A program made the position numbers and the translations under genes. Positions 100-21,722 of a stretch of 34,361 nt of DNA are shown here, piece after piece. The notes under the pieces were generated by a model that was not told the origin of the DNA, made no database searches, and saw only the letters and a program-made list of their open reading frames with translations. How positions within the stretch are numbered: the stretch's first letter is position 1; the number at the start of each line of letters is the position of its first letter. The DNA is from Bacteroidia bacterium (GTDB lineage: Bacteria; Bacteroidota; Bacteroidia; Bacteroidales; BM520), in contig RZYD01000004.1 of the NCBI GenBank assembly GCA_009930445.1, positions 1 to 34,361 of the forward strand, read 5' to 3'.

Positions 100-538
100 A
101 GACCCTGTTAAAATTAACTTTAAAAGGACTACCACCATTAAAAACTTCATCTTTATCTAGCTCAACACTATCTAAAACACTACCCGTTGGATTTTCACTA
201 GCGTCGGCATTATATACTTCTATTGTCAAATCGCTTGGAGTTCCTGTCCAAATAGTTATATAAAAAGTAGCACTCATTAAATATCCTTTAGTAGCCTTAA
301 AAGATTGTGAAACAATATCATCATCACGAATATCCCACTGAGCTCCTCCACTATTAGTTTGCGTTATTTCTTCCGTTTCTCCTGTTGGTTTCAAAATATC
401 ACCCCATTTTGTCAACGGACTAACACTTGTTCCACCAGTTAATAAGCCTGTTAATGATATACTATCAGGGTCAATACTACTTGCGTTCTCGGCCGGCCAT
501 TTATCCCCTGCGTTAAATTTATATTTTGATAAACTCAT
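1..538 (-). CDS. Tail fibre / receptor-binding protein, N-terminal part (continues at the right end)
   Basis: Translated by hand from the ATG at 538 (MSLSKYKFNAGDKW...), the frame stays open to base 1 and continues at the right end of the window (33190-34262). The joined gene is 1,611 nt, 536 aa. This part carries the virion-attachment end and the first of two jelly-roll-like repeats (around ...SQSFKATKGYLMSATFYI..., 'YCFVFKSPDSNGSNYYK'), a pattern common in phage fibres and carbohydrate-binding modules. It follows the tail-tip genes directly, the usual place for a fibre. An A/G-rich stretch (AAAGGAAA) lies about 12 nt before the start. The gene lacks the GATCGY motif found elsewhere and contains GGCCGGCC at 491-498, unlike the rest of the genome. 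Function is inferred from repeats, position and the C-terminus. Confidence 0.8.
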   Translation of the reverse strand, partial: MSLSKYKFNAGDKWPAENASSIDPDSISLTGLLTGGTSVSPLTKWGDILKPTGETEEITQTNSGGAQWDIRDDDIVSQSFKATKGYLMSATFYITIWTGTPSDLTIEVYNADASENPTGSVLDSVELDKDEVFNGGSPFKVNFNRVSLTVGNKYCFVFKSPDSNGSNYYKINTSSSNTY

Positions 539-542
539 AAAT

Positions 543-779
543 TTATTTTAATTTCCTTTCTTTTAAAATGTTTCTAAATTTCTTTTTTATTTTTTTGTTG
601 TCTTTCAAAAAATGAAAGGGTGTATTAACTTTATTAAACTCCTCTTTTGTCCCATTATATTCAGCTCTAATAACTTTATGCTGAAAATTACACTCAGTCA
701 CAACTTGATAAGCCTCCAAGTCGTCAGCGACCTCAACCTCAACGATAACAATATTCTTTTTTTGTTTTTCTTTAACCAT
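543..779 (-). CDS. Small lysine-rich protein of unknown function
   Basis: 78 aa starting at ATG 779. The N-terminal half has alternating hydrophobic residues ('NIVIVEVEVADDLEAYQVV') that suggest beta strands; the C-terminal 25 residues are strongly basic (KKIKKKFRNILKERK). No family is recognised. It sits between a tail protein and the tail fibre, 4 bp from the fibre start, and has its own promoter-like sequence at 788-816 that could also drive the fibre gene. A tail-tip or fibre-assembly role is only a positional guess. The plus-strand ORF over the same bases (612-794) is a shadow. Confidence 0.7.
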   Translation of the reverse strand: MVKEKQKKNIVIVEVEVADDLEAYQVVTECNFQHKVIRAEYNGTKEEFNKVNTPFHFLKDNKKIKKKFRNILKERKLK

Positions 780-787
780 ATATCAAA

Positions 788-816
788 ATTATAACATTTT
801 TCTTAGACACTGGCAA
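788..816 (-). promoter_or_regulatory. Sigma-70-like promoter TTGCCA-N17-TATAAT
   Basis: On the minus strand TTGCCA is followed by exactly 17 bp and then TATAAT, just upstream of the 78-aa gene (start 779) and hence of the tail fibre. It overlaps the 3' end of the preceding tail gene, so it would boost the last tail genes inside the late operon. Near-perfect hexamers and optimal spacing support the call; activity is not tested. Confidence 0.65.
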
Positions 817-1483
817 AGGTATATTTACAACTAACCACGATCGCAGTAGAGGTATCTTTAGCCCAACTCAATCCTTTAAGGTAAGACCATAATTGACCAG
901 TATCAACAGTCCCAGTCCCGTCAATAGCATTACCAAACTCAGTAATAGTAACAGAGCCACTAGGTGGATATTCAGCCTCAGTCAAAAAAGCAGTCAAATA
1001 AGCGATATTAGATGAGGCAGTAGCACTAGCAATATCATTCCTATAAGTTTCAGTTTCTAAAGTAGTATCTGAGGCAGAGGCAGAGCCAGTAGTTCCAGTC
1101 CCGAATAACGCTTTATTGATTTCTCCTGTATAGGTGGTGTCACCAGTCAATAATCTAGTAAGAGCATTAAATCCAGCATTACAGATTACATTTTTGTGAA
1201 CATCAACATTAACCAACTTACCAAAATGATAATTATTAAACATATAATCACGAACTGCCAACATAAACTCTAATTTAGTCTTTTTCAATCTACGATTGAA
1301 AAACTTTCTAAACTTATTGACATAACTATCAAATTTAGTGAATTTATATTCCTCCACCATTTTATCGCATTTAGCGACTAGATTTTTATTTTCTATTTTT
1401 TGTTTTTCCGTTAATGTTTTCTGATCGTGAAATTTAGCAGTAATCTCACCAGTAACTTTAACTTTTTGGTTTAAATTTTTCAT
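803..1483 (-). CDS. Putative minor tail / tail-tip protein
   Basis: 226 aa. Residues 1-90 are charged and helical; residues about 95-226 are rich in Gly, Ser and Thr with a beta-type pattern ('GFNALTRLLTGDTTYTGEIN', 'FGTGTTGSASASDTT'), similar in style to phage minor structural proteins that carry a C-terminal beta domain. It follows the 495-aa tail hub-like gene by 12 bp and precedes the fibre genes, which supports a role at the tail tip. The start is an ATG with an AT-rich leader (TATAAAAATATG) and no Shine-Dalgarno sequence. It carries two GATCGY motifs (839 and 1423). The exact function is unknown. Confidence 0.6.
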   Translation of the reverse strand: MKNLNQKVKVTGEITAKFHDQKTLTEKQKIENKNLVAKCDKMVEEYKFTKFDSYVNKFRKFFNRRLKKTKLEFMLAVRDYMFNNYHFGKLVNVDVHKNVICNAGFNALTRLLTGDTTYTGEINKALFGTGTTGSASASDTTLETETYRNDIASATASSNIAYLTAFLTEAEYPPSGSVTITEFGNAIDGTGTVDTGQLWSYLKGLSWAKDTSTAIVVSCKYTFASV

Positions 1484-1493
1484 ATTTTTATAA

Positions 1494-2981
1494 TTAACCT
1501 AAATAACTTCTATTTAACATAAACTCCCTTTTTTTATCTGTCTGTCCCGTAGGAGTATAAGGGCATAAAACAAAGTCAGGATGAACCCCAGCCCCAAAAG
1601 GGTCTTTTTGTAAGTCCTCAGTGACCTCAACATCTTGGTGGTCCTCTTTTTGGTCAAGAACCTCAACCTCCTCAGTAACCTGAACCCTCTGACTATCTAT
1701 ATAATATTTTTCTAATACTTCATCCTCATTCAATTCTAAATTATCATTACTCAATAATTTATCTTGTAAAAACTGAATAATCCCCATAGTTTGAGTAGTA
1801 GCTAATTCCACAGTCCACTCTCCCTTTGTCCGAGTAATCATTTTTAAAGCTACCCTTTGGATAATGAACTGGTCAGCAATTCCCAAATCTGTCAAATTTA
1901 TTGATAAAGTTTGTCCTGATTTTAACCCACTCTCATAAGTTCTAAAAGAACCCTCCCGAACTGACTGAGCATAGCTTTCTAATTGAGCCTGTGCGTAAAG
2001 CTGTGCGTCCTCAGAACTTTTTAAGTCCTTATTGACCTTAGAGAACTCATATCTCCCAAATTGACTTATAGAGCCTAAATCCTCAATCTGAACGATTATA
2101 GGTATCTCAGGGTATCCAGTAATAACAATCGGATGAGTATCGGTAGGGGCAGTCCCAAATCTTATATATTTCTGATTATAATTCCAATAACAATCATAGC
2201 CAGTAGTATCTAAATTCTCAACCCCAACCGTAACAGGCGAACCATTAACAGTAACTATAGGCAACTCAGCAAATTTATAATCTGTATTAAAAGCAGTAGT
2301 AGTCCCGTCCCCTGTGTGGTTTTTATCACGAGTATTAGTAGCAACTTTATCAGCCCCCCTGATAGTGACAACATTTCTCAACTGACTTAAATCACTATTC
2401 AAATCTAAACTATTACCAATTATATAATCACTATCATCAGAAATATTAAAAGGTGAAGCCTCAGAGTTTTTAGCAATAAAGTGAATATCACTATCATAAT
2501 CAATATACCAAATATAATTAGTCAATTTGGCTAGATCGTTCAAGCACTGAGTAACGGTCTTTTTATTGAAAACAATTCTAGTAATCTCTATATCACAATC
2601 AACATTAGTAATCGTGACCCCTGACAAATAATTAGTATTGATATAATCAATTATGTCATTCACAGTTTCCTCATCAAAACTTTCGGTAACAATCACTCTA
2701 TCTAATTTTAAGGTTTCATCTTTTACGGTGACCTGATAATAAGCAATATCAGCCTCAAAATAATTCCTTACCCTGATTATAGTCCCACTAAATATTTTAT
2801 CTGAGCCGTCAGTAGCGACCACACTATCACCAATAGCAGGTTTATAACTCTGACCTGTATATGTTTTTATTATAAAAGAGCAGGTGTTAGGTTGCTGATT
2901 AACATTATCCTCATATCTAAAACTACCCCACTCAACCAAACTGGACTTATCAACTCCTCCGATTGTAACTGTGATGTTCAT
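1494..2981 (-). CDS. Tail hub / distal tail protein (baseplate-hub-like)
   Basis: 495 aa. The N-terminus ('VTIGGVDKSSLVEWGSFRYE', then 'KPAIGDSVVATDGSDKIFSG') has the beta-barrel pattern of phage hub proteins such as the Mu gp44 / tail-associated families: insertion-type barrels followed by a segment about residues 100-175 ('CLNDLAKLTNYIWYIDYDSD') typical of tail hub proteins. The C-terminal 60 residues are acidic. It lies directly after the tape measure gene, overlapping nothing and separated by one base, which is the usual slot for the distal tail/hub protein. It probably closes the tail tube and anchors the fibre. Family assignment is by pattern, not by search. Confidence 0.7.
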   Translation of the reverse strand: MNITVTIGGVDKSSLVEWGSFRYEDNVNQQPNTCSFIIKTYTGQSYKPAIGDSVVATDGSDKIFSGTIIRVRNYFEADIAYYQVTVKDETLKLDRVIVTESFDEETVNDIIDYINTNYLSGVTITNVDCDIEITRIVFNKKTVTQCLNDLAKLTNYIWYIDYDSDIHFIAKNSEASPFNISDDSDYIIGNSLDLNSDLSQLRNVVTIRGADKVATNTRDKNHTGDGTTTAFNTDYKFAELPIVTVNGSPVTVGVENLDTTGYDCYWNYNQKYIRFGTAPTDTHPIVITGYPEIPIIVQIEDLGSISQFGRYEFSKVNKDLKSSEDAQLYAQAQLESYAQSVREGSFRTYESGLKSGQTLSINLTDLGIADQFIIQRVALKMITRTKGEWTVELATTQTMGIIQFLQDKLLSNDNLELNEDEVLEKYYIDSQRVQVTEEVEVLDQKEDHQDVEVTEDLQKDPFGAGVHPDFVLCPYTPTGQTDKKREFMLNRSYLG

Positions 2982-2982
2982 A

Positions 2983-5067
2983 CTATAAATTATTAGCTAG
3001 TTGTAGTTTATTTATAATTTGATTACCGATTTTTTCTCCTGCCTCATTATCAAGCAAAGTATTCCCAGTAATATTTATCTCAATAGCCCTCACCTGAGAT
3101 GAAGTTTCAGCAACTCTCCTATTTATATCAGCGACACTAATCTGACCAGTAGTCAAACCTTTCTTTGAGTTTTGAATAGCTTTAGCTAACTGATTATATT
3201 TTTCAATTTCTCTATTTATACTCTCAGCAGTAGCTAACTCACTCTCAGCAAGAAAAGCCTGATAATTTTTTAGTCCTTGTTCTTGATAGGCTTTAATCTC
3301 AGCATATTTAGCAACTTCTAAAGCTAACTCTTTTTGTAGAGCATTATACTTAGACTGATATTCCTCCTCTATCGCCATTCTCTTTAAATTCAAATCCTCC
3401 ACAGTTCTCTCAAACTCTGTTAGACTGGCTCTCCTACGAGCCTCAGCGACCTCATTATGATAAGCCAACTCAATAGACTTCTTTTCAGCCAAGACAGCTT
3501 TTTCTCTTTCTAATTCTGAGAATAACTGGTCTTTATGGTCTTGGTCTTTCTCTGACTGCCATTGAGCCTGTAAATCAGCGACTTTCTGCTCTTGTTCTAC
3601 ATAAGCCTCAGCGAAGTCATTTCTAATCCCTAGAGTATCTTTAGCATATCCAGTATTTAACTCTTTCATTTTATCTGTAATCTCAACTATTTTACTACCG
3701 ACATCATTAAGAGCCTCCATACTTTTCTCTCCAAAGTCCTCTAGTGTTTCACCGAATTTTTTAAATTGTTCTGTGGCTTTCTTTCCGTCCTCAGTAGCCT
3801 CATCAAATCCCTGAGATAAACCACTTAAAGCATTATTATATTCTCCTAACTGAGTTGTAGCCCCTGGCATACCCTCCATAGCAACGAACTCATTAAAAGT
3901 ATCAACTACTTTCTGCCAAGAACCAGCAACATAATCAGAAGTCCCCGAACTATTGGTCCCAAAATTTTTCATCTCTAAAGTGACATTAGAGAACATATCT
4001 GTGAACATAGTGCTAATTTCCTCTTTAGCACCACTAAAATCACCTGTGATAGCTTTTCCAATAGATGAAAAAACACTCATCAAGTTTTTACCAAAATCTT
4101 TAAATAAATTTATTCCGTCCTTAACGAAAGCGACCATTACCTTAGACACATCATACATAGTCATACCGAACCCGATAAAGGTATCAATAATAGCTCTCAA
4201 AGACTGCCATAGCAACTTAAAGAACTGAACAACCCCGTAGATCGTCTTTCCGACATAATTAAAGCCCTCAGCGTCAGCTCTGAGCCAATCAGCAAGTTTT
4301 ATCAACTCATCTACAAGCAGACCTCCCCAAGTGATGAGCATATTTCCTTGCGTTCTTAAAAATATATTTATACTATCTTTTAAATTTGAAATCTTACCTA
4401 GAAAAGTCCCTGATTGTTTATCCATTAAATCAAAGAACTTACCTCCCTCACCTGACATAGTTTGAAAGGCTTTCTCAACCTCAGGAAATCCAATCTTACC
4501 CTCACTAACCATATCCTTAATAGCTTTCTCACTTACATTCAAATTCTTAGCTAACTCAGATATAAGAGGCACACCTGCCCTGACGAAATCTCTTAATTCA
4601 ACACCAGTCAAAACAGTTTGACTTTTAACCTGACCATAGTTATAAGCTAGTCTATTCAAATCTACACTTAGACCAGCACTAACATCACCCAACGCTTTCA
4701 TAGTAGGTATAACGCTATTAGCCTCAATACCCATAGCTAAAAGCTGTTTAGCACTCTGCTCAATACCAACTAATTCAAAAGGTGTCTTAGACGCAAAATC
4801 AGCCAAATCTCTTAACATAAGATTGGCTTGTTCAGCACTTCCCAACATAGTAGTAAAGGCAATCTGTGTCTGCTCAAACTTTCCAGCTAAGTCTATCATC
4901 TTTCTACCGAGAGCAACTACTCCCATAGTTCCCCCCAAGATCGCACCTAATTTTAAAGCGGTAGAGCCTAAACCACCCATACCGCTTTTTACCTTGTTTA
5001 AATTGGCAGTAGCCTCATCTTTTGCCTTGATAACTATTGATAAATTTTTTTTATTTTCACCTAGCAT
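2983..5067 (-). CDS. Tail tape measure protein
   Basis: 694 aa, the longest late gene. Residues about 65-240 form the phage tape-measure N-terminal domain ('FEQTQIAFTTMLGSAEQANL', 'DLADFASKTPFELVG', 'GVELRDFVRAGVPLISELAK'). Hydrophobic stretches near residues 35-55 and 270-345 can act as membrane segments during DNA entry, and residues about 450-660 are a long charged coiled coil (VEQEQKVADLQAQWQSEKD...). At about 1.5 angstrom per residue the tail would be near 100 nm, typical of a siphovirus. The gene begins 3 bp after the stop of the frameshifted chaperone product, the classic order G/GT then tape measure. The stop is TAG. Confidence 0.95.
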   Translation of the reverse strand: MLGENKKNLSIVIKAKDEATANLNKVKSGMGGLGSTALKLGAILGGTMGVVALGRKMIDLAGKFEQTQIAFTTMLGSAEQANLMLRDLADFASKTPFELVGIEQSAKQLLAMGIEANSVIPTMKALGDVSAGLSVDLNRLAYNYGQVKSQTVLTGVELRDFVRAGVPLISELAKNLNVSEKAIKDMVSEGKIGFPEVEKAFQTMSGEGGKFFDLMDKQSGTFLGKISNLKDSINIFLRTQGNMLITWGGLLVDELIKLADWLRADAEGFNYVGKTIYGVVQFFKLLWQSLRAIIDTFIGFGMTMYDVSKVMVAFVKDGINLFKDFGKNLMSVFSSIGKAITGDFSGAKEEISTMFTDMFSNVTLEMKNFGTNSSGTSDYVAGSWQKVVDTFNEFVAMEGMPGATTQLGEYNNALSGLSQGFDEATEDGKKATEQFKKFGETLEDFGEKSMEALNDVGSKIVEITDKMKELNTGYAKDTLGIRNDFAEAYVEQEQKVADLQAQWQSEKDQDHKDQLFSELEREKAVLAEKKSIELAYHNEVAEARRRASLTEFERTVEDLNLKRMAIEEEYQSKYNALQKELALEVAKYAEIKAYQEQGLKNYQAFLAESELATAESINREIEKYNQLAKAIQNSKKGLTTGQISVADINRRVAETSSQVRAIEINITGNTLLDNEAGEKIGNQIINKLQLANNL

Positions 5068-7960: not shown

Positions 7961-8263
7961 CTAATTATTAGCTTTATATATATAAGCCTCTAAACGGCTC
8001 ACCTTGCGAAATTTAAACTTTCTGATAGCTTTTACCACATACTTCACATTATCCTTGTCTACGACTATGTCAGCCTCTTTCAGGTCCTCATTAACATCAC
8101 AATAGAGCTTACAAGCCTTAGACGGGTCGCCCTCAGCCAAAATCACATCCTCAGCTTTAAGAGGCAAGATAATTCCCATAATAGTCCCGACATTAAAATA
8201 TTCCTCAGTCTTACTATACAGGGTAGGTCTTTTTACTGTGATTTGCTCATTAAAAAATATCAT
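7961..8263 (-). CDS. Head closure / head-tail adaptor protein
   Basis: 100 aa, small beta-barrel pattern: 'NEQITVKRPTLYSKTEEYFN', 'IMGIILPLKAEDVILAEGD', 'DIVVDKDNVKYVVKAIRKF'. The order connector, adaptor, gp10-like protein, tail terminator is the standard siphovirus head-completion cassette (SPP1 gp16 / lambda FII-like stopper). It overlaps the upstream connector gene by 4 bp (ATGA). Assignment rests on size, order and the barrel-type strand pattern. Confidence 0.75.
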   Translation of the reverse strand: MIFFNEQITVKRPTLYSKTEEYFNVGTIMGIILPLKAEDVILAEGDPSKACKLYCDVNEDLKEADIVVDKDNVKYVVKAIRKFKFRKVSRLEAYIYKANN

Positions 8264-8847
8264 ATATTTCTAACTCTATAAGTGGATAACATAGATTTTA
8301 ATTCAGGAGTTAAACAATCCTGAAAGGTGACATTTCCTCCGTCTAATCCCTCAGAACTCTCACCCTCACTCTCACTTTTATTATAAAACCCGTCAGCTAA
8401 CTTTAAACAGGCTAATTTAAGCCCATTAGGTAAATCAGCACTATCTCCTGAGATCGTATATCCAGCAGTATAAACAACCTTATAATTATTATATCCTGAT
8501 TGAACTCCTAGATTTTCTCTAGTGAAATTCAATTTGATTATTCCCTCATCAGTCAATAGAGCATAATTATCTCTATCCTCCTCACTCCAACTAGGTGAAC
8601 TTTCTGTCCCTGAGTTATAATAAACAGTCACATCAGTTATCTTAGTCCGATTAGTTAAGAAAATTTGGTCGCCCTCATCAATAATATCATCTCCGTTAAA
8701 ATACTCAGTGACCTCTCCTTTAACTAATTTATTCTGACAATAGGATTGAACAAAATCAATCACACCATTCACAATCAAGTCAATTTTATCATCATAAGTA
8801 TCTACACTTATACCAGCGAAATTTTTAAACTCTGCTTTTGTAATCAT
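8260..8847 (-). CDS. Head-tail connector protein (gp6-like adaptor)
   Basis: 195 aa. The N-terminal helical region ('EFKNFAGISVDTYDDKIDLI' and 'GVIDFVQSYCQNKLVKGEVT') matches the phage gp6-like connector family that docks under the portal. A C-terminal helix with acidic insert (DGFYNKSESEGESSEG) follows. It is the first connector gene after the inserted glycosyltransferase/methyltransferase genes; in most HK97-type phages it would follow the capsid gene much more closely. The leader before its ATG is AT-rich (TTTAAAAATATG). Confidence 0.8.
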   Translation of the reverse strand: MITKAEFKNFAGISVDTYDDKIDLIVNGVIDFVQSYCQNKLVKGEVTEYFNGDDIIDEGDQIFLTNRTKITDVTVYYNSGTESSPSWSEEDRDNYALLTDEGIIKLNFTRENLGVQSGYNNYKVVYTAGYTISGDSADLPNGLKLACLKLADGFYNKSESEGESSEGLDGGNVTFQDCLTPELKSMLSTYRVRNI

Positions 8848-8856
8848 ATTTTTAAA

Positions 8857-9486
8857 TTAAAATTTATACCCCTTAGCACTTTTACCAATCCCCTCGTGCC
8901 AAGTTTCTAAGTCTTTGAGATATACACTTAAATATCCGTTCTTTCTCCAAAATCCACCCCTCTCAACATCTTTCTCAATCATCTGCTCAGCCATTAACTC
9001 AAAAGCCTCTCTAGGTATCACTGTGAACATTCCTCCTGTGTGAGTAGTTATCTCAACATTAAAAGAACCCAATTCTCTCCTATTATCAACTATCTGAGGC
9101 TTATAGGAGGGCAATATATTCAAATCTAAAGGGGCTGTGATGTATTTATCTCCCACTTCGTTATAAAACCTCATAATCTCTGCTAAAATCCCTCTAGTCT
9201 TAATTTGGCAGTCATCATCAAACTTCATTACATAGTCAGGAATAAACCCGTGTTTAGTCCCCTCTCTATATCCACGAACCCAAGCCCTAACTATTCCCTC
9301 GTTTTCAATATTACTAATTACATTATAGCCTTTTTTCTTAAGCCATTCAACAGTTCCGTCATTACTTCCGTTATCTACAACAATATGCTCATAAGGATAA
9401 CCAGCTTTTCTTTTTAATTCTCCTAAAAATCTCCTAGTAGTTTCTAAGCGACCTCTAGTAATTGTGATAACTAAAACTTTTTTCAT
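8857..9486 (-). CDS. Glycosyltransferase family 2 (GT-A fold)
   Basis: 209 aa. The N-terminus 'KKVLVITITRGRLETTRRF' and the motif 'HIVVDNGSNDGTVEWLKKKG' are classic GT2 nucleotide-sugar binding features; 'MKFDDDC' provides the metal-binding DxD. 'ETWHEGIGKSAKGYKF' ends the protein. It overlaps the methyltransferase gene by 4 bp (ATGA), so the two are translationally coupled. The gene lies inside the head module between capsid and connector genes, which points to late expression and possibly to sugar decoration of the virion; host cell-surface change is the alternative. The acceptor and donor cannot be told from sequence. Confidence 0.85.
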   Translation of the reverse strand: MKKVLVITITRGRLETTRRFLGELKRKAGYPYEHIVVDNGSNDGTVEWLKKKGYNVISNIENEGIVRAWVRGYREGTKHGFIPDYVMKFDDDCQIKTRGILAEIMRFYNEVGDKYITAPLDLNILPSYKPQIVDNRRELGSFNVEITTHTGGMFTVIPREAFELMAEQMIEKDVERGGFWRKNGYLSVYLKDLETWHEGIGKSAKGYKF

Positions 9487-10043
9487 AATAATTTTATAGT
9501 AATTAACATTTTTGAATAATCATCAGACCTAGCTACATATCGGTCAACGACCTTAAAATATAAATCTAATCTTTCTAAAAATAACTCCTCGTAGATTGAG
9601 GTTTTATGTTTTTCAGCAGGATTACCACCACACTCATCTTGTTCAACCACACCGAGAGGCACAACAATCATCATATACTTGAATATCCCCTTTAACCTAA
9701 CCAATAAATCAAACATCTCATTTTCCTCTAAATGCTCTAACACATCCCCAAAGATTGCGAGATCGTAGGTTTTCTTACTATCCCACCATTCCCTTATATC
9801 ACACTTCTCAACCACATTATAAATCCCCTCATACTTCAACCACTCAACAGACTTATCAAAAACTTCTAATCCTTTTAAAAAGATATTAGGTCCAAGAACT
9901 GAACGAGCTATCACTCCATACTTACCAAGACCAGCACCAAAATCAACGATAGTAGCAGGTTGTATTCTTTTTAAAATAACCTTAGCGACTTCATCTGTCA
10001 TCCCCCAACTTCCTCCTGTATTTTCAGGTTTTATCTTTTCCAT
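9483..10043 (-). CDS. SAM-dependent class I methyltransferase
   Basis: 186 aa. Motif I 'TIVDFGAGLGKYGVIAR' binds S-adenosylmethionine; the acidic end of strand 2 (LEVFDKS), 'YDLAIFGDVLEHLEENEMFD' (motif IV region of small-molecule and sugar methyltransferases) and 'MMIVVPLG' follow in the right order. No DNA-methyltransferase catalytic motif (DPPY/PC) is visible, so a sugar or small-molecule acceptor is more likely than DNA. It overlaps glycosyltransferase genes on both sides (13 bp upstream, 4 bp downstream), so the three form one coupled unit, perhaps to make and cap an O-methylated glycan. Confidence 0.85.
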   Translation of the reverse strand: MEKIKPENTGGSWGMTDEVAKVILKRIQPATIVDFGAGLGKYGVIARSVLGPNIFLKGLEVFDKSVEWLKYEGIYNVVEKCDIREWWDSKKTYDLAIFGDVLEHLEENEMFDLLVRLKGIFKYMMIVVPLGVVEQDECGGNPAEKHKTSIYEELFLERLDLYFKVVDRYVARSDDYSKMLITIKLL

Positions 10044-11515
10044 ATTTTCATAAAATCAACTTTATTAAAATCAATCACTTCACCCTTTTTCATCATTCTA
10101 TTATATAGGTCAGGATTTTCTAAAAGCATTTTCTTGTCATACTTTAGCTGTCTTTCCTTTTTAGCCTTTACATCCTCATCTCTCACATAACCAAAATGCT
10201 TTAAGATATATTCAGTTTCTTTCCTATTCTGATAAGCATATTTAGGTCCTGAACCACAGTGTAGATTTCTGTCATAGAACTTTTGTGATTGTTCGGGGCA
10301 ATATCTAAATAACCTGATATTCTTTTGCTGAGAAAACACCCCGTCAATTCTTACTTTATCCTCAGACCCCCAATAATGAGCCAAGACAAAATCATAGGCA
10401 ATACCACTATTGAGCAAACTGATAATAGCAGGTCTATTTAATTCCTCATCAAAGAACTCATCTGCGTCAATCGGGATAATTCCAAGAGGATTTTTAGAGA
10501 TAGCATATTGAGTAGCCCTCTCTCTTAATAAGTTCTCAGCCTTACCAAACAATTTGAATTTATGCTCGTAGATCGTGATAGGGTAATATTCTTTTAACCT
10601 TTTTAACTCTTTTATAGTTTTAGTATCTGAGTTATCACAGACAACAACTATCTCGTCAATTAGTTTCCTTTTAAATAAGTCAATAATTACTCTACTCATA
10701 TATCTGTCAGCCTCATTACCGACAATCATACTCCCGATTATTCTTTCCTTGTTTTTCCACTTTAAATTAAAATAAGCAAGACCATTATAATAATTAGAAC
10801 GCCAAAACTCAGACATAGTATTTACACTATCCTTGCCCTCGTGTTTGGCTTTAGCCTTGCTTACACAAATTTTATATCCTCGCCTTTTAACATTCTCACA
10901 TAAATCATTATCCTCAAACATAAAGAAAAATGTTTCATCAAATCCTCCAATCATCTCAAATAACTCTCTCCTAATACACATCACAGAGCCATTAAGACCC
11001 CAAGAGGTTTCAGAACAAGCAGTCCCGACCATTCCGACCTCACTATCACTAAAAGGCTTTAACAGATTATAGAAAAAACCACTCTCACTTAACTCAACAT
11101 CATCATTTAGGAATAAGATAAACTCTCCTAGTCCCTCATTTAACTTAGCCCCGTCATTACAGGCTTTAGCAAAACCCCCAACCTCAGGGCTAAACTTCCT
11201 CTCAATAACTTCAAGAGTAATTTTTTTCTGTTTTAAATATTTTTTAAGAACACCTAAACTAGCGATTGATTTCTTGTCCTTAGTAGGCACAACAACATCA
11301 ATAACTCCTCTTTGATATTTCTTGCCGAGAATATTACGCCCAGTCAATTTATCTCTCTCAACCTCATCAGGCATATAAACATCCTCCAGCAACTCAGTCT
11401 TTTTAACAATCTTATCTTTTTTTAATTGTTTATATTCCTCAGGGCTTACAGCTCTGACATCCCCTGGCACATAATTATCTTGACCTTTTAGATATTCCAC
11501 TAATATCTTGGTCAT
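10031..11515 (-). CDS. Two-domain glycosyltransferase with an N-terminal capsid-associated-like domain
   Basis: 494 aa in three parts. Residues 1-45 ('KILVEYLKGQDNYVPGDVRA', then a short helix) resemble the complete 59-aa head-module protein encoded just upstream. Residues about 70-260 form a GT2 domain ('GVIDVVVPTKDKKSIASLGV', 'EFILFLNDDVELSESGFFYN', 'GGFDETFFFMFEDNDLCENV'), and residues about 260-490 form a second GT2-like domain with 'LGIIPIDADEFFDEELNRPA' (DxD-like). The gene sits directly after the small head gene and before the methyltransferase. The fusion suggests the enzyme is brought to the capsid, or at least descends from such a protein. Sugar donor and acceptor are unknown. Confidence 0.82.
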   Translation of the reverse strand: MTKILVEYLKGQDNYVPGDVRAVSPEEYKQLKKDKIVKKTELLEDVYMPDEVERDKLTGRNILGKKYQRGVIDVVVPTKDKKSIASLGVLKKYLKQKKITLEVIERKFSPEVGGFAKACNDGAKLNEGLGEFILFLNDDVELSESGFFYNLLKPFSDSEVGMVGTACSETSWGLNGSVMCIRRELFEMIGGFDETFFFMFEDNDLCENVKRRGYKICVSKAKAKHEGKDSVNTMSEFWRSNYYNGLAYFNLKWKNKERIIGSMIVGNEADRYMSRVIIDLFKRKLIDEIVVVCDNSDTKTIKELKRLKEYYPITIYEHKFKLFGKAENLLRERATQYAISKNPLGIIPIDADEFFDEELNRPAIISLLNSGIAYDFVLAHYWGSEDKVRIDGVFSQQKNIRLFRYCPEQSQKFYDRNLHCGSGPKYAYQNRKETEYILKHFGYVRDEDVKAKKERQLKYDKKMLLENPDLYNRMMKKGEVIDFNKVDFMKIWKR

Positions 11516-11521
11516 AATTTT

Positions 11522-11701
11522 TTACTTAGATTTTTTATACTCTTTAGCAAATCCTTTCTTAATAAATTTCTCTGCTAAACTTTTGTTAAAACCAGCAACC
11601 TCACCTTTGATATAAGGGGTATGTGGTTTAACGAACTCAATTAAAACCAATTTCTTAGTTTCCTTTTTTTCCTCTTTGTTAGAGGTGTTTTGTCTTGCCA
11701 T
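11522..11701 (-). CDS. Small head-module protein (missed by the ORF track)
   Basis: 59 aa, below the ORF cut-off; stop TAA at 11522-11524, start ATG at 11701. After a basic tail (MARQNTSNKEEKKETKK) comes 'LVLIEFVKPHTPYIKGEVAG' and a helix 'LAEKFIKKGFAKEYKK'. Short proteins with this strand-loop-YxxGE[VI]-helix pattern are common between the capsid and connector genes of HK97-type phages; their job is not well known. The same pattern opens the 494-aa glycosyltransferase 7 bp downstream. It is separated from the capsid gene by a strong stem-loop. Confidence 0.8.
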   Translation of the reverse strand: MARQNTSNKEEKKETKKLVLIEFVKPHTPYIKGEVAGFNKSLAEKFIKKGFAKEYKKSK

Positions 11702-11724: not shown

Positions 11725-11765
11725 AGCTTACGAGGTCCACCTCAAAAGAGATGAACCTTAAAGCT
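11725..11765 (-). terminator. Strong stem-loop immediately after the major capsid gene
   Basis: As minus-strand RNA a 10-bp stem (GGUUCAUCUC / GAGGUGGACC, UUUU loop, two G-U pairs) is extended by an outer AGCUU/AAGCU stem. On the opposite strand the two G-U pairs become C-A mismatches, so the structure belongs to the transcribed strand. It begins at the capsid stop codon and has no U-tract, so I read it as an attenuator or a 3' stabiliser that sets the ratio of capsid to downstream products. Confidence 0.65.
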
Positions 11766-12825
11766 ATTTAACACCAGTCATTTTCTTACAAGCGGCAGGA
11801 AGTGTATAAACACCGTCCACAGCTTCAGCAACAACTAGCTCAACTTGTAACTTAGATAGGACTTTGTCTGTATCAACAAACATTTTTTCTCCGTCCTTAA
11901 TCCAGTAATACCACATATCACCGAAATAGATTTCTGTGGTATCAGCAGAACTTCCTAAATTAGCAGGGATGTCAGCACTTTCAACCAAAGGTTTGCCTAA
12001 TACTTTAGTAGTATTAAAGTCAAAAATTGGTCTACCGTTGTCATCCTCTACATTTAGAATAGCCTGCATTCCAAGTGAGGAAGTTAAGAATACTGCGTTA
12101 TCACGATATTGTTCATCTAGAGCAAAATATAGTTTAACCATATCTTTATACTCTAAAGCTGAACCAGCCTGAGCAATAGTGCCAGTCAAAGAAGCAGATC
12201 GTAGACCTGTAGGCTTAGCGTCACCGTCACCAGCAACGAAAGCACTTTCCTCTTTGTTTCTTAACGAACGAGCACACAATTCACCAACATAGTTAACGAT
12301 ATTATATGCTGAGGTATTTAACAACTTACGAGGAATAAGAACTCTAGCCGCTAAATAGTAATCCCCAAGAGTTTTCTTGTTTAAAGTAGGATTGCTTTCA
12401 GTGATAGTTTCGTTCTCATCTACCCAATAACCTGTAACACCTGTCCCCTCAGTAGGTAATTGAAAATTACCTGACATTTGGAAAACAAAAGCCAACTTAC
12501 GCATTTTGGCAATTTTATCTTTGGCTTGTAAGATAAAAGAGCTTAATTCGGTAGGCACAGCGTAACCGAATGATTCAGTATCAGAGTCAATAGCTTTCTT
12601 TTCAAACTCAGCAGATTTCTGCTCACTACATACTTCTTTGATGAAGTTAGCAGATTTCTCTAAATTTTCCTCGTCACTATTAACTTTAACTTCGTCTTTT
12701 AAAGTGCCTTTGACCTCATCAAGGACTTCCTTTTTAAGGTCAGGGATTATTTCTTTAATCCCGTCAGCCATTATGGATTTTAATTCCTCCATAGTGACCT
12801 CTTTGATTTCATTTTTTTCACTCAT
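11764..12825 (-). CDS. Major capsid protein, HK97 fold
   Basis: 353 aa. Residues 1-80 are charged and helical ('MEELKSIMADGIKEIIPDLK'), the delta/scaffold-like segment that the prohead protease would remove. The rest matches the HK97 gp5 family: 'ESFGYAVPTELSSFILQAKD', 'MRKLAFVFQMSGNFQLPTEG', 'LIPRKLLNTSAYNIVNYVGE', 'ESAFVAGDGDAKPTGLRSAS' and 'IYFGDMWYYWIKDGEKMFVD'. It follows the protease gene by 17 bp and ends inside the base of a strong stem-loop. The exact cleavage site is not visible. The stop codon is TAG. Confidence 0.95.
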   Translation of the reverse strand: MSEKNEIKEVTMEELKSIMADGIKEIIPDLKKEVLDEVKGTLKDEVKVNSDEENLEKSANFIKEVCSEQKSAEFEKKAIDSDTESFGYAVPTELSSFILQAKDKIAKMRKLAFVFQMSGNFQLPTEGTGVTGYWVDENETITESNPTLNKKTLGDYYLAARVLIPRKLLNTSAYNIVNYVGELCARSLRNKEESAFVAGDGDAKPTGLRSASLTGTIAQAGSALEYKDMVKLYFALDEQYRDNAVFLTSSLGMQAILNVEDDNGRPIFDFNTTKVLGKPLVESADIPANLGSSADTTEIYFGDMWYYWIKDGEKMFVDTDKVLSKLQVELVVAEAVDGVYTLPAACKKMTGVK

Positions 12826-13803: not shown

Positions 13804-15879
13804 TTAAATAGGCACAATATCACATTTACAATTAGGATGAACTGGTATCTCTCCTTGAATACTTTTCATAGTCCACTGGTTCTGTGATTTTGCTACACAC
13901 TCCTCACAAGCCCCAGGGCTTAATAACCACTCAGCCTCGTTAAAACCATAATACATATAGGTTTGTAGATGAGCCTCAGTAATTCCTCTAGCAGTTTCAG
14001 TCCTAGCAATCATCTCAGCTCTAGTATCACCAGCAAAGCTGAATACCTTTCTTACCCTCTTAGTTAACTCACCGATATTCTCTCCCTGAGCAATACCCTC
14101 CCTGATCGTGGTATCAAAGGCAGTGATAGTAGTGTCATTTATATTCTTACCAATTTCCTCACCAACTTTATCCAACCACTCTCTTAAGAACTGAAAATCA
14201 GATATAGCAGGTTGGTTTATCAATTCACTAGCTTGTTTAGCACCTCTCATCACGGTTTCATACATTAGAGGATTGATTATCTCAATAGTGGCACTTAACT
14301 CATCCTCTACATCAATACCAATATCCTCAGCAACACTCTTTTTAACTTTCTCTAATTTAGCTATAAACCTGCCCTCCTGAGCCTTAAAGAACTTTTTAAA
14401 TGTATCAGACCATATTTTCTCTAAACTCTCCTCCTCAGCCATTCTAGCCTTATACCAAGCCTCAACAACATCCTTACTCAACTCTAGTTTTTTTTTTGGT
14501 TCAGCCTTTTTATCAACTAACTTAAAAACAACTTTCTTTTTACCCTCTAAAATCTCATAGGCTTTCTTAGTGGCTTTCTCAGATAATTTCTTATTTCTTA
14601 ACTTTCTATTTAAAATCATTTTCTTAACATATTTCTCAGTCTTAAGGTCAACTCTACCCTCATCCATTTTCCTAGCGTCACCAATCTTTAAAATCTCAGC
14701 AGATTTTTTCTCTCCACCAATCATAGGTAAAGAAGTAAGAGGCATATAAATATACTCTCCCCCCTTGATAGGAGTAAGTCCGTCCATTTCTCTGACCTCA
14801 TTAACGGTCCTCCAACGATTAACGCTTTCAGTCTTTTTCTTTAACTCTATTTCCTCATCCTCTTTGGCAAGAGGCTCAAAGCCTAACCAAATATCATCAT
14901 CAAACTTAGGCACTAAAAACTCATTCAACTGCTCACAGATTTCAGTAGCCAAAGGTTCTAAAGTCCATTTATTAAACTGATATTCCCCAGCGACAGCAGA
15001 GGCTCTATTTACATCATCAAAAGTCATCAAAGATTTCGGCACTCCAAATATTCCAAGTATCTCATCTCTGTTTAACTTACGACCCTCAATAAATTCTAAA
15101 TCACGAGGAGGGATGACATTAGGTTTAAACTTCATACCACCTTGTAATATCTGAATTTTATGAGCATTTTCAAACCCTGCCATTTTAGCCTTAGACTTTT
15201 TCTCTAATCTCTTAATTTCTTTATTATCCAATATTTCCTCAGTTTCTAAAAAACCACTAGAGATCGCACCCTCTTTCAAAAGATTGTTATTAGATTGAAG
15301 CATATAGTCATCATTCTCAGCAGTCATTCTTACAGCCTCAATAATACCAATACCTTTGTCAGGATTTTTAGGATTATAATTTTTTAAAAAGATAACTTGG
15401 TTCGGGCTATACTCTCGTTTATAAGTCCCAATCTCATAAACATACTTAACCACATTACCCTCTTTATCTTTCTCTGCTTTAAAATACTCAGGTCTAGCAA
15501 TATACATCTGAGTAGGATTATTCCCGTTCTTATCTCCACCCTCTAATATCCAGGGTGAAGCACCTAACAAATCTCTATACACAACACTCAACTGAATAAA
15601 ATTATATTTAGTCATTTGAGAGTTAACCCTATTTAACAATTCAAGGACTGGATGTTCCAAGACCTCAAACACTTTATCTCCTTTTAATTTATATGCCTTA
15701 AATTCAATCTGAGCCAAACCCATAGACCTACGAGCAACACAACCATAAACCCAGCTCTTATAAAAATCTAAAGCGTCATTCTTAGTGACGATATTAGACA
15801 TTATGCCTGAGTTATAAAAAAAGGAATAAGGCACGCCTTTCTTTTCACCGAGATTAAAGATTTTACTAAATAGTCCCAT
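13804..15879 (-). CDS. Portal protein fused to a MuF-like head morphogenesis domain
   Basis: 691 aa. Residues 1-390 are an HK97-family portal ('YKSWVYGCVARRSMGLAQIE'-like start, 'DKGIGIIEAVRMTAENDDYM', 'LNRDEILGIFGVPKSLMTFD', 'RASAVAGEYQFNKWTLEPLA'). Residues about 480-691 are a MuF / SPP1 gp7-type domain: 'TIREGIAQGENIGELTKRVR', 'AEMIARTETARGITEAHLQT', then 'CEECVAKSQNQW' and 'IPVHPNCKCDIVPI' at the very end. A K-rich linker joins them. In many phages these are two adjacent genes. The gene has its own promoter at 15908-15936 and an AT-rich leader. The portal is the DNA channel at one capsid vertex; the MuF part is probably a minor head protein. Confidence 0.93.
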   Translation of the reverse strand: MGLFSKIFNLGEKKGVPYSFFYNSGIMSNIVTKNDALDFYKSWVYGCVARRSMGLAQIEFKAYKLKGDKVFEVLEHPVLELLNRVNSQMTKYNFIQLSVVYRDLLGASPWILEGGDKNGNNPTQMYIARPEYFKAEKDKEGNVVKYVYEIGTYKREYSPNQVIFLKNYNPKNPDKGIGIIEAVRMTAENDDYMLQSNNNLLKEGAISSGFLETEEILDNKEIKRLEKKSKAKMAGFENAHKIQILQGGMKFKPNVIPPRDLEFIEGRKLNRDEILGIFGVPKSLMTFDDVNRASAVAGEYQFNKWTLEPLATEICEQLNEFLVPKFDDDIWLGFEPLAKEDEEIELKKKTESVNRWRTVNEVREMDGLTPIKGGEYIYMPLTSLPMIGGEKKSAEILKIGDARKMDEGRVDLKTEKYVKKMILNRKLRNKKLSEKATKKAYEILEGKKKVVFKLVDKKAEPKKKLELSKDVVEAWYKARMAEEESLEKIWSDTFKKFFKAQEGRFIAKLEKVKKSVAEDIGIDVEDELSATIEIINPLMYETVMRGAKQASELINQPAISDFQFLREWLDKVGEEIGKNINDTTITAFDTTIREGIAQGENIGELTKRVRKVFSFAGDTRAEMIARTETARGITEAHLQTYMYYGFNEAEWLLSPGACEECVAKSQNQWTMKSIQGEIPVHPNCKCDIVPI

Positions 15880-18780: not shown

Positions 18781-19518
18781 TTAACTTAATTTTAAAATGT
18801 TCTTAAGTATTTCATCCTCACCGAACTGGTCTTTAAGAATATTAGCATTAGGAATTTGGCAGTGTCCTCCAATCTTTCCTTTAGGAGGGTAAAGAGTAGG
18901 TCTAATAACCTCAGGCTTTCCTAACTCTCTATATCCTTTATTGTAGCTAGTATTGAAATCAGTAAGAACCACATCAAAGTTAGCGCCGATTTGCTCACAT
19001 AACTTATCTACATACTCAGTGAACGCAATACAGTGAGCATAATAGGTAGTAGATACTAATTTCCCTAACTCAGTATTCTTAGAACCTTTGACAACTTTAG
19101 CGTCTAATCCAAGATCGTCTTTAAAATGGAATAGAACTTTTAGACCTAAATTATCATCATCAGCCCCAATATATTTAACAAAGGTTTTAACTCCCTCATA
19201 TAAATTAGGATGAACCCCACGAATAGGAGAGTGAACTACATTCCCGAAAGCTAAAAATAATTGAAAAGTAACGCTTACTTTAACCGTGCTGTGAATAACC
19301 ACAAACTTTGGTTTATATTTATTTATGTTCTCAACTACAACCTCATTAAACTTTTCATTATAAGGGATACAGATATGTAGATATTCCATTCCCTCTCTAA
19401 AATTATTTATCCCTTTAGATAAATCATTCTCCAAGATAAAGAAGTCCTTAGGAGAGTTTATATAGACTTCTTTGATAGCAGTCCCGACTTCGCCAAGACC
19501 TAAAATTCCAATAATCAT
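18781..19518 (-). CDS. UDP-glucose/GDP-mannose dehydrogenase-like protein
   Basis: 245 aa. The N-terminal Rossmann motif 'IIGILGLGEVGTAIKEVY' binds NAD(P); 'VVIHSTVKVSV' resembles the S-T segment of the dehydrogenase family, 'KNTELGKLVSTTYYAHCIAF' corresponds to the central helix with conserved Glu/Lys/Asn region, and 'IGGHCQIPNANIL' resembles the GGxC catalytic-Cys motif. The family is normally about 430 aa; the C-terminal UDP-binding domain is missing, so the enzyme is a short phage form and substrate binding may differ. It lies near a glycosyltransferase gene and probably makes or alters an activated sugar. Confidence 0.75.
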   Translation of the reverse strand: MIIGILGLGEVGTAIKEVYINSPKDFFILENDLSKGINNFREGMEYLHICIPYNEKFNEVVVENINKYKPKFVVIHSTVKVSVTFQLFLAFGNVVHSPIRGVHPNLYEGVKTFVKYIGADDDNLGLKVLFHFKDDLGLDAKVVKGSKNTELGKLVSTTYYAHCIAFTEYVDKLCEQIGANFDVVLTDFNTSYNKGYRELGKPEVIRPTLYPPKGKIGGHCQIPNANILKDQFGEDEILKNILKLS

Positions 19519-19529
19519 ATATTTTTAAT

Positions 19530-19742
19530 TTAATTAACAGATATAAATTTATTATGCTTTTTTAAGAAATCATCAACTGGCTTGTCAAAATTCTTTTGGT
19601 CCAAATCACCTAATATCTCTCTTGCTCTACTCAACCGACAATAAAACCCACACTCACATTTATAGTTTTCATTAAATCTCCTCTTTATCTCATTCCCACA
19701 CATAGGGCATTTATCATCCCGTAAGTTTTCCCAATTTTTCAT
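19530..19742 (-). CDS. Small zinc-ribbon protein
   Basis: 70 aa. 'CPMCGNEI' and 'YKCECGFYC' give a C4-type zinc ribbon (CxxC plus CxC) in the first 40 residues, followed by a helical region ('SRAREILGDLDQKNFDK'). It overlaps the glycosyltransferase upstream by 4 bp, so the two are coupled. Function unknown; a small nucleic-acid- or protein-binding adaptor is a reasonable guess. Confidence 0.7.
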   Translation of the reverse strand: MKNWENLRDDKCPMCGNEIKRRFNENYKCECGFYCRLSRAREILGDLDQKNFDKPVDDFLKKHNKFISVN

Positions 19743-20479
19743 ATTCCATTTATAGGTATTCTCACAATAGGGTTTATGCTTAGATTACCCCCCTGAATTT
19801 TCCTTTTAATCTCAACAACATTATGCCCCCACTTTTTTTGAAATAGGATAGCTTGTTCCTCCTCTTTTTTCATAGTCCGATAACTAGCACAACCTCCTTT
19901 TTTCTTTATATGAGCAGATACATAATGATATTTATTAAATCTCAAAACCTTTCTGAATTTCCTGAGGGCTTGAATAGAATAATCATAGTCCTCCTTAAGA
20001 CCTAATCTCTCATCAAACCTTATATCCTCGTCCTTGATTATTCCCATACAAGGTCCGAGAATAACTGAACTAAAACTAAAGGGCGAATACTCACGATAAA
20101 ATTTCTTATCGCTTTGTAAATTAACGCCCCAAAGTTTAGTCCCTAATTCTTTTGCCATTCTAAAATTATTCTCAAATAAATCATAGACCTCCTGCTCAGT
20201 CATCATAAACATTTCCAAATTCTCGTAATAACCAAATTGTCTAATATCATCATCCAACATCACCAACTCATTCCCCTTACTATTATCAAGAATAAAATTT
20301 CTAATTACTGCCATACCCTTACCTGCTAGATCGTCAGGAATAGCGACTATTTTATTGTCATTATATTTTTTATACTCCTCTACCTCAAACTGATGACAAT
20401 AAATAACTGCTCTACTAAATTTTTTAGCAGTCAGACAATCATTTGCTCTTTTATAACTTGGTATAGCAATCTCAAACAT
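19739..20479 (-). CDS. Glycosyltransferase, TET-associated (TAGT)-like
   Basis: 246 aa. It starts 'FEIAIPSYKRANDCLTAKKF' and continues 'VIRNFILDNSKGNELVMLDD' with the metal-binding DDD, then 'GLKEDYDYSIQALRKF'. The IPS-KR start, the RN-I segment before a DDD and the E-D-Y-D segment are features I associate with the TET/JBP-associated glycosyltransferases that add sugars to hydroxymethylated cytosine in phages, and more broadly with GT-A enzymes. No TET/JBP or hydroxymethylase gene is seen in this genome, so a DNA acceptor is not proven. Neighbours are a zinc ribbon and a sugar dehydrogenase. Early/middle position differs from the late head-module glycosyltransferases. Confidence 0.65.
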   Translation of the reverse strand: MFEIAIPSYKRANDCLTAKKFSRAVIYCHQFEVEEYKKYNDNKIVAIPDDLAGKGMAVIRNFILDNSKGNELVMLDDDIRQFGYYENLEMFMMTEQEVYDLFENNFRMAKELGTKLWGVNLQSDKKFYREYSPFSFSSVILGPCMGIIKDEDIRFDERLGLKEDYDYSIQALRKFRKVLRFNKYHYVSAHIKKKGGCASYRTMKKEEEQAILFQKKWGHNVVEIKRKIQGGNLSINPIVRIPINGI

Positions 20480-21116: not shown

Positions 21117-21722
21117 TTATTTAATTAAATCAAGGAGTTTCTGACCGTCTAATACACGACCAACCCCTTTTTGTTTATAGTCTTTATTACTACTCTTAGA
21201 TAAAACACTTTTCAATTTAAAATAATCCTCAATAGCCATCCAATCAACTGAATTGTTAAAAGCAAATACTATATAATTATTTTCCTCTAATAACTCAGCA
21301 CTAAACTCCTCCTCCTTAACCAAGCTGACATCATCAGCGAATACCTTACTCAACTCACTCTCCATAAAACCAACCTCTCTCAATAACTTCTCATCCAGTC
21401 CAGCCAATAACTTAGTATCAAACTCACCCTTATTTTTATTCAATCTTAAATTTAACTCTTTCTCATCCTTAATCTGTAAATTCACACCAACACAAGGCAC
21501 TTCTTTCATTCCTAACTCCTGAGCAATCATTAACCTTTGATGACCACCGATAACAATATTTTTCCTCTTAGGATTGATATTGATTACAATAGGCTCAACG
21601 AAATCAAATTTTTTAATTGACTTTTTTAATTCCATTTTTTCCTTTTTCCCAATCTTTCGGGGATTGTAGGTAGCAGGTTTTAATTCACTAACCTTTTTTT
21701 GTATTATTTTTAGATTGCTCAT
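21117..21722 (-). CDS. ParB-like protein (ParB N-terminal / sulfiredoxin-type domain)
   Basis: 201 aa. 'KKVSELKPATYNPRKIGKKE' then 'IVININPKRKNIVIGGHQRL', 'MIAQELGMKEVPCVGVNL' and 'ELNLRLNKNKGEFD' give the ParB N-terminal fold with the GGHQR motif, of the kind that often precedes a DNA methyltransferase in phages. Here the methyltransferase half is absent; instead a C-terminal part ('ENNYIVFAFNNSVDWMAIED', 'GVGRVLDGQKLLDLIK') follows. Such stand-alone phage ParB proteins may nick DNA or regulate a modification locus. It overlaps the preceding gene by 35 bp. Confidence 0.8.
   Translation of the reverse strand: MSNLKIIQKKVSELKPATYNPRKIGKKEKMELKKSIKKFDFVEPIVININPKRKNIVIGGHQRLMIAQELGMKEVPCVGVNLQIKDEKELNLRLNKNKGEFDTKLLAGLDEKLLREVGFMESELSKVFADDVSLVKEEEFSAELLEENNYIVFAFNNSVDWMAIEDYFKLKSVLSKSSNKDYKQKGVGRVLDGQKLLDLIK

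Follow-up and report, generated by a model that had tools for sequence, protein, structure and literature searches.

A small protein domain encoded directly behind the major capsid gene of tailed phages from an uncultured group was found a second time, at the front of the glycosyltransferase (GT) encoded next to it. The window, i.e. the whole stretch of 34,361 nucleotides that was analysed, is a tailed-phage contig with an HK97-like gene order on the minus strand, and sequence comparison that includes relatives leaves no doubt that the 59-aa small protein is homologous to the 494-aa GT over the opening ~40 residues of the latter. We propose that a head-binding domain fused to the GT would target it to assembling heads, where it would glycosylate head proteins together with the partners of its cassette, a reading in which we place about as much trust as doubt. 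Glycosylation of phage virions is already established in mycobacteriophages, and the fusion of a GT with a head domain seems to be new.

The genes on the minus strand follow the order terminase, portal-MuF, protease, capsid, 59-aa protein, 494-aa GT, methyltransferase, GT2 and head-tail connector. The HK97-fold major capsid protein (11764..12825, minus strand; Pfam Phage_capsid, E 4.1e-48; PHROG major head protein) is followed by the stand-alone small protein (11522..11701, minus strand) and the GT (10031..11515, minus strand), which lie where the sequence-only reading had placed them; the spacing that it gave as 7 bp measures 6 bp from the stop codon of the small gene to the GT start. The GT carries the fused copy of the small domain at its N-terminus (residues 1-44, 11384..11515, minus strand), followed by two GT-A-like domains. 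Next come a methyltransferase (9483..10043, minus strand; Pfam Methyltransf_23, E 1.8e-6), whose gene begins 13 bp before the GT gene ends, and the second GT of the cassette, a single-domain GT2 (8857..9486, minus strand; Pfam Glycos_transf_2, E 2.1e-12), whose gene overlaps that of the methyltransferase by 4 bp. Because of the 6-bp gap and these two overlaps, the GT cassette reads as one block. The head-tail connector, a gp6-like adaptor, lies beyond it (8260..8847, minus strand; Pfam Phage_connect_1, E 1.5e-9; phrog_442 head-tail adaptor, E 8e-19). The portal and the Mu-F-like minor head protein form one 691-aa ORF (13804-15879, minus strand), which is similarly long in the related loci L031 and L033 and is represented by two separate ORFs in L001 and L036.

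Taken alone, the two segments of the window resemble each other weakly, with 9/36 identities, a Smith-Waterman score of 43 where shuffled sequences average 23.5 (p 0.0012) and a BLASTP match of 6/17 (E 8e-4, for a single comparison), and both weakly match PHROG 34879 (E 0.0063 and 0.021). A chance likeness between short beta-beta-alpha-beta segments of separate origin would be compatible with the core identity of 21% and the shuffle p of about 0.001 in this pair, and such a fold is common, but the comparison of families makes chance scarcely credible. When 15 small proteins were aligned by hhalign with nine GT N-termini, the match extended over 37 gapless columns with P 5.3e-17 and probability 98.8, and its score of 68.1 was far beyond the best of 300 column-shuffled GT profiles (18.6). 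Windows slid along the GT matched only at its N-terminus (next best elsewhere, P 8e-4), and the window's own clade by itself gave P 1.8e-6. Adjacent copies are identical at 15/30 (L044), 15/36 (L047) and 17/36 (L048) positions in these three distant relatives, with core identities of 39-45%. Chance similarity was rejected on the evidence of these relatives and of the shuffle and sliding-window controls. The gapless alignment to the GT N-termini delimits the core of the small protein to residues 18-56 (11534..11650, minus strand). A profile search of the domain alone and fused, which had been suggested along with a comparison of structures, likewise put both segments into one family: besides the hhalign result, a full-length GT profile searched against three GT-less records matched only their small proteins (E 2e-8 to 3e-5), through GT residues 3-46.

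The comparison of predicted structures agreed on the order of secondary structure, the register and the nearest solved folds. AlphaFold2 predicted strands at residues 18-23 and 35-39, a helix at 40-49 and a strand at 52-54 for the small protein (mean pLDDT 78), and strands at 4-8 and 20-23, a helix at 25-33 and a strand at 37-39 for the GT start, where the pLDDT of the block was 70-82 and the rest of the model was poor. Both segments are thus predicted to be beta-beta-alpha-beta with a constant register offset of 14-15, which bears out the common order of strand, turn and helix noticed before. As the model of the 494-aa protein had a mean pLDDT of 38.7, only residues 1-40 were used for the fold comparison of the small domain. 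Both models matched the same solved folds, the GINS structure 3anw_B and ribosomal L9 N-domains. The GINS B-domain and the L9 N-domain are accordingly the nearest solved folds to both copies, but they belong to cellular proteins with no usable sequence similarity and another context. The list for the small protein was headed by the C-terminal domain of lambda gpFI (2lsm; Z 6.0, rmsd 1.6, 48 residues), tied with L9 and GINS rows. Beyond the domain, the small protein of the window has only a low-confidence tail of 17 residues and no helical second domain.

The remainder of the 494-aa protein has two GT-A-like domains of the Pfam GT2 type, in line with the two-domain GT of the sequence-only reading. 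Residues 174-223 matched Pfam Glyco_tranf_2_3 (E 2.4e-10; PF13641, 41.2 bits against a curated cut-off of 27) and residues 272-383 matched Glycos_transf_2 (E 2.5e-9; PF00535, 37.7 bits against a cut-off of 23.3). The first domain (residues ~72-257, 10745..11302, minus strand) contains the motifs NDD (137-139) and ED (201-202), and the second (residues ~258-494, 10034..10744, minus strand) contains DADE (350-353); NDD, ED and both Asp and the Glu of DADE are invariant in 9/9 aligned sequences. The fold of the second domain, taken from a poor model, matches dolichyl-phosphate mannose synthase, ArnC and GtrB. Unlike membrane-bound O-antigen GTs, the 494-aa GT shows no obvious membrane segment; a search along it for a strongly hydrophobic segment of 19 residues found none.

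Full-length relatives of the GT were found at 13 loci among viral contigs, which include near copies (L034, L035, L036, L042 and L043; L045 and L046), with 47-77% identity to the GT of the window over the whole length (near relatives 61-77%, distant ones 47-49%). The small N-terminal domain is kept in every one of them, down to 47% GT identity, and in every relative seen the fused GT is located in the head operon, apart from DNA-modification genes. The distant GT matches L049, L050, L062-L071 and GX15bay aligned with parts of the GT domains only, none of them at the N-terminus, and were set aside. The stand-alone small protein occurs in both GT-bearing and GT-less phages among the viral contigs and lies directly behind the capsid gene in all examined relatives having it. 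The GT-less L038, L039, L040, L053, L058, L059, L060 and L080 have the order capsid, small protein, connector. The small protein is the usual core part of this module and the GT is accessory, and it follows from the GT-less order that the GT and its satellites occupy a variable slot behind the small protein, which looks like a site of variable head decoration. In L045 and L046 the GT lies directly behind the capsid gene and no copy other than its N-terminal one was found on the whole contig (the contigs are possibly fragments); as the only copy, it may serve the original role of the small protein.

The history of the fusion was approached through a tree of the 40-residue core, in which all GT copies except that of L045 formed one group with weak support (84.5/85), placed weakly (20/70) beside the small proteins of L044, L047 and L048. 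The GT domain of the window is only 21% identical to its own neighbour and 41% identical to the small protein of L047. The earlier proposal of a duplication followed by fusion thus holds as regards homologous copies but fails as a recent event in this phage, which we rejected because of this low identity of the pair and the grouping of the GT copies. Since small proteins of other phages resemble the GT domain more than its own neighbour does, a recent origin of the copies here can be dismissed, and so the fusion is old and inherited, or was carried along with the GT gene. The simplest account, on an alignment too short for proof, would be a single duplication and fusion long ago, after which the small proteins of the window's clade drifted. 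A search of 40 genomes related to the assembly of the window did not detect the domain, and tblastn of the domain against 50,697 phage records gave weak matches only. Small proteins of the group match, weakly to moderately, the PHROG families 34879, 28254, 38773, 2616, 10196 and 24620 and Pfam DUF7210 (best PHROG match, phrog_34879 with L053, E 7.9e-8), all of which are unannotated and name no GT fusion.

The closest known parallel to the small protein is lambda gpFI, the DNA packaging chaperone FI (Popovic et al. 2012, as described in citing papers). Like that of the small protein, the gene of gpFI comes directly behind the one for the major capsid protein, with the head closure gene following it. 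To judge from the weak match to 2lsm, on a level with the L9 and GINS domains, its head-binding C-terminal domain may have a similar fold. This synteny, in which the small protein takes the place of FI in lambda, and the fold match together suggest a role in contact with the head. However, gpFI has a helical domain that is absent from the small protein of the window, it carries no enzyme, in contrast to the GT-fused copy, and sequence similarity is not detectable: the small proteins did not match PF14000 or phrog_92 in our searches, and hhalign with the lambda FI C-terminal domain gave P 0.23-0.31. Membership of the gpFI family by sequence was rejected on these results, and since there is also no helical second domain in the window, we leave the small protein outside the gpFI family; in function it may well correspond to the head-binding half of gpFI. 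The best bridge between the two is the stand-alone protein of L060, in which the domain is joined to a helical part of SAP/Rho_N-like type; lambda gpFI gives a hint of such a part as well. gpFI is believed to work via the major head protein (PMC7889075), and MCP3 of TP901-1 has been compared with gpFI (PMC4493119).

The mechanism that we propose builds on the domain homology, the conserved fusion and gene order, the conserved GT-A motifs and the lack of an obvious membrane segment, and from there we infer head binding, the virion as target, the acceptor and the sugar product. The small protein would be a head-module domain binding the major capsid protein or the prohead, comparable to the head-binding C-terminal domain of gpFI. 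A copy of it, joined in the distant past to the N-terminus of a soluble GT with two domains, would bring the enzyme to assembling heads, where the GT, the adjoining GT2 and the methyltransferase would build a short glycan on a head protein, which the latter two could extend and cap. Capsid binding and modification of the virion are consistent with the synteny, the weak gpFI fold match and the sole copy in L045/L046. Against such targeting count the failure to connect it with gpFI by sequence (hhalign P no better than 0.23), the Z of 6.0 for 2lsm, which lies within the range of a common arrangement in which ribosomal L9 and GINS B-domains score alike, the RNA binding of ribosomal L9, and a TET-associated GT encoded by the same phage, with which DNA glycosylation is possibly in its repertoire. 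A further version, a capsid-homing GT with a head-binding, packaging-chaperone-like domain fused so that heads are glycosylated during assembly and with the L045/L046 enzyme also replacing the stand-alone protein, is conceivable, but we lean against it.

Two other readings of the fusion were weighed. The cassette could alter the host surface (O-antigen or capsule) or make a soluble glycoconjugate, the N-terminal domain being a folding or dimerisation remnant of an accidental in-frame fusion with the neighbouring gene. A gene can easily be duplicated by accident beside its parent, and of the phage GT families with any score most are O-antigen GTs or GTs of unspecified kind. The second GT domain is similar to the polyprenyl-phosphate GTs GtrB and ArnC (poor model), and surface-modifying GTs have been proposed in structural regions of phages (PMC8008677). 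Against this, the domain persists in every full-length relative found, and in L045/L046 although the stand-alone copy is absent there, and the enzyme is without an obvious membrane segment; we regard a host-surface role as rather unlikely.

Alternatively, the domain could lead the GT to another part of the head module, such as the portal, the terminase or the packaging DNA, and the enzyme would modify packaged DNA or a neck or tail protein and not the capsid shell. Folds like the L9 N-domain include RNA binders, the connector is the next gene in the GT-less relatives, and the TET-associated GT and a ParB-domain protein of the window suggest glycosylated DNA; but the TET-associated GT is encoded in another gene block and falls into another Pfam family, and the fused GT keeps to the head operon and not to the side of DNA-modification genes. 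We consider a target elsewhere in the head module improbable. The TET-associated GT itself (19739-20479, minus strand; PF20691, E 1.4e-18) probably acts in DNA base modification, and the ParB-domain protein is encoded near it (21117-21722). Besides, a short protein with a UDP-glucose/GDP-mannose dehydrogenase central domain (18781-19518, minus strand; PF00984, just above the cut-off) is perhaps a nucleotide-sugar enzyme.

Under the targeting of the GT to the head, the nearest known case is that of the mycobacteriophages, whose GTs glycosylate capsid and tail-tube proteins (PMC12363180), including the virions of Che8, Corndog and Myrna (Freeman et al. 2023, as cited in PMC12363180). As in the window, the GTs there are phage-encoded. 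In our own reading of its sequence, Che8 has three GT genes, and in one of them a methyltransferase-like part seems to be joined to the GT; they are placed at the genome's far end and, by eye, start directly with the GT fold and have no small head domain. The domain profile had no match in the Che8 record, in a search run with no positive control, and Che8 was rejected as a system of the same make on both counts. In the open papers searched, which cover the literature incompletely, no account of a fusion between a GT and a head protein came to light.

We know of no described phage system that addresses a GT to the particle by a head-morphogenesis domain. To the question of how phage GTs reach the virion and not other acceptors, a GT carrying a domain of the phage's own head module would offer a direct and testable answer, i.e. 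targeting by a borrowed assembly domain. If this is true, the orphan small proteins of PHROG 34879, 28254, 38773 and 2616 would gain a probable place at the capsid, and the domain would provide a natural address tag by which enzymes could be directed to the heads of phages.

Some of the related loci have additional features. L062, from a phage of another group, has GT-like genes seemingly behind a capsid-like gene (263-3953), with no evident small domain. Extra genes, including those of long fibre-like proteins, stand between the GT cassette and the connector in L001 (8593-10943) and L033 (7130-10129). Apart from these, the GT cassettes of L044 (7051-7539) and L048 (6490-6978) encode a small kinase-like protein with the P-loop GIPSSGKT and GIPSCGKT, respectively.
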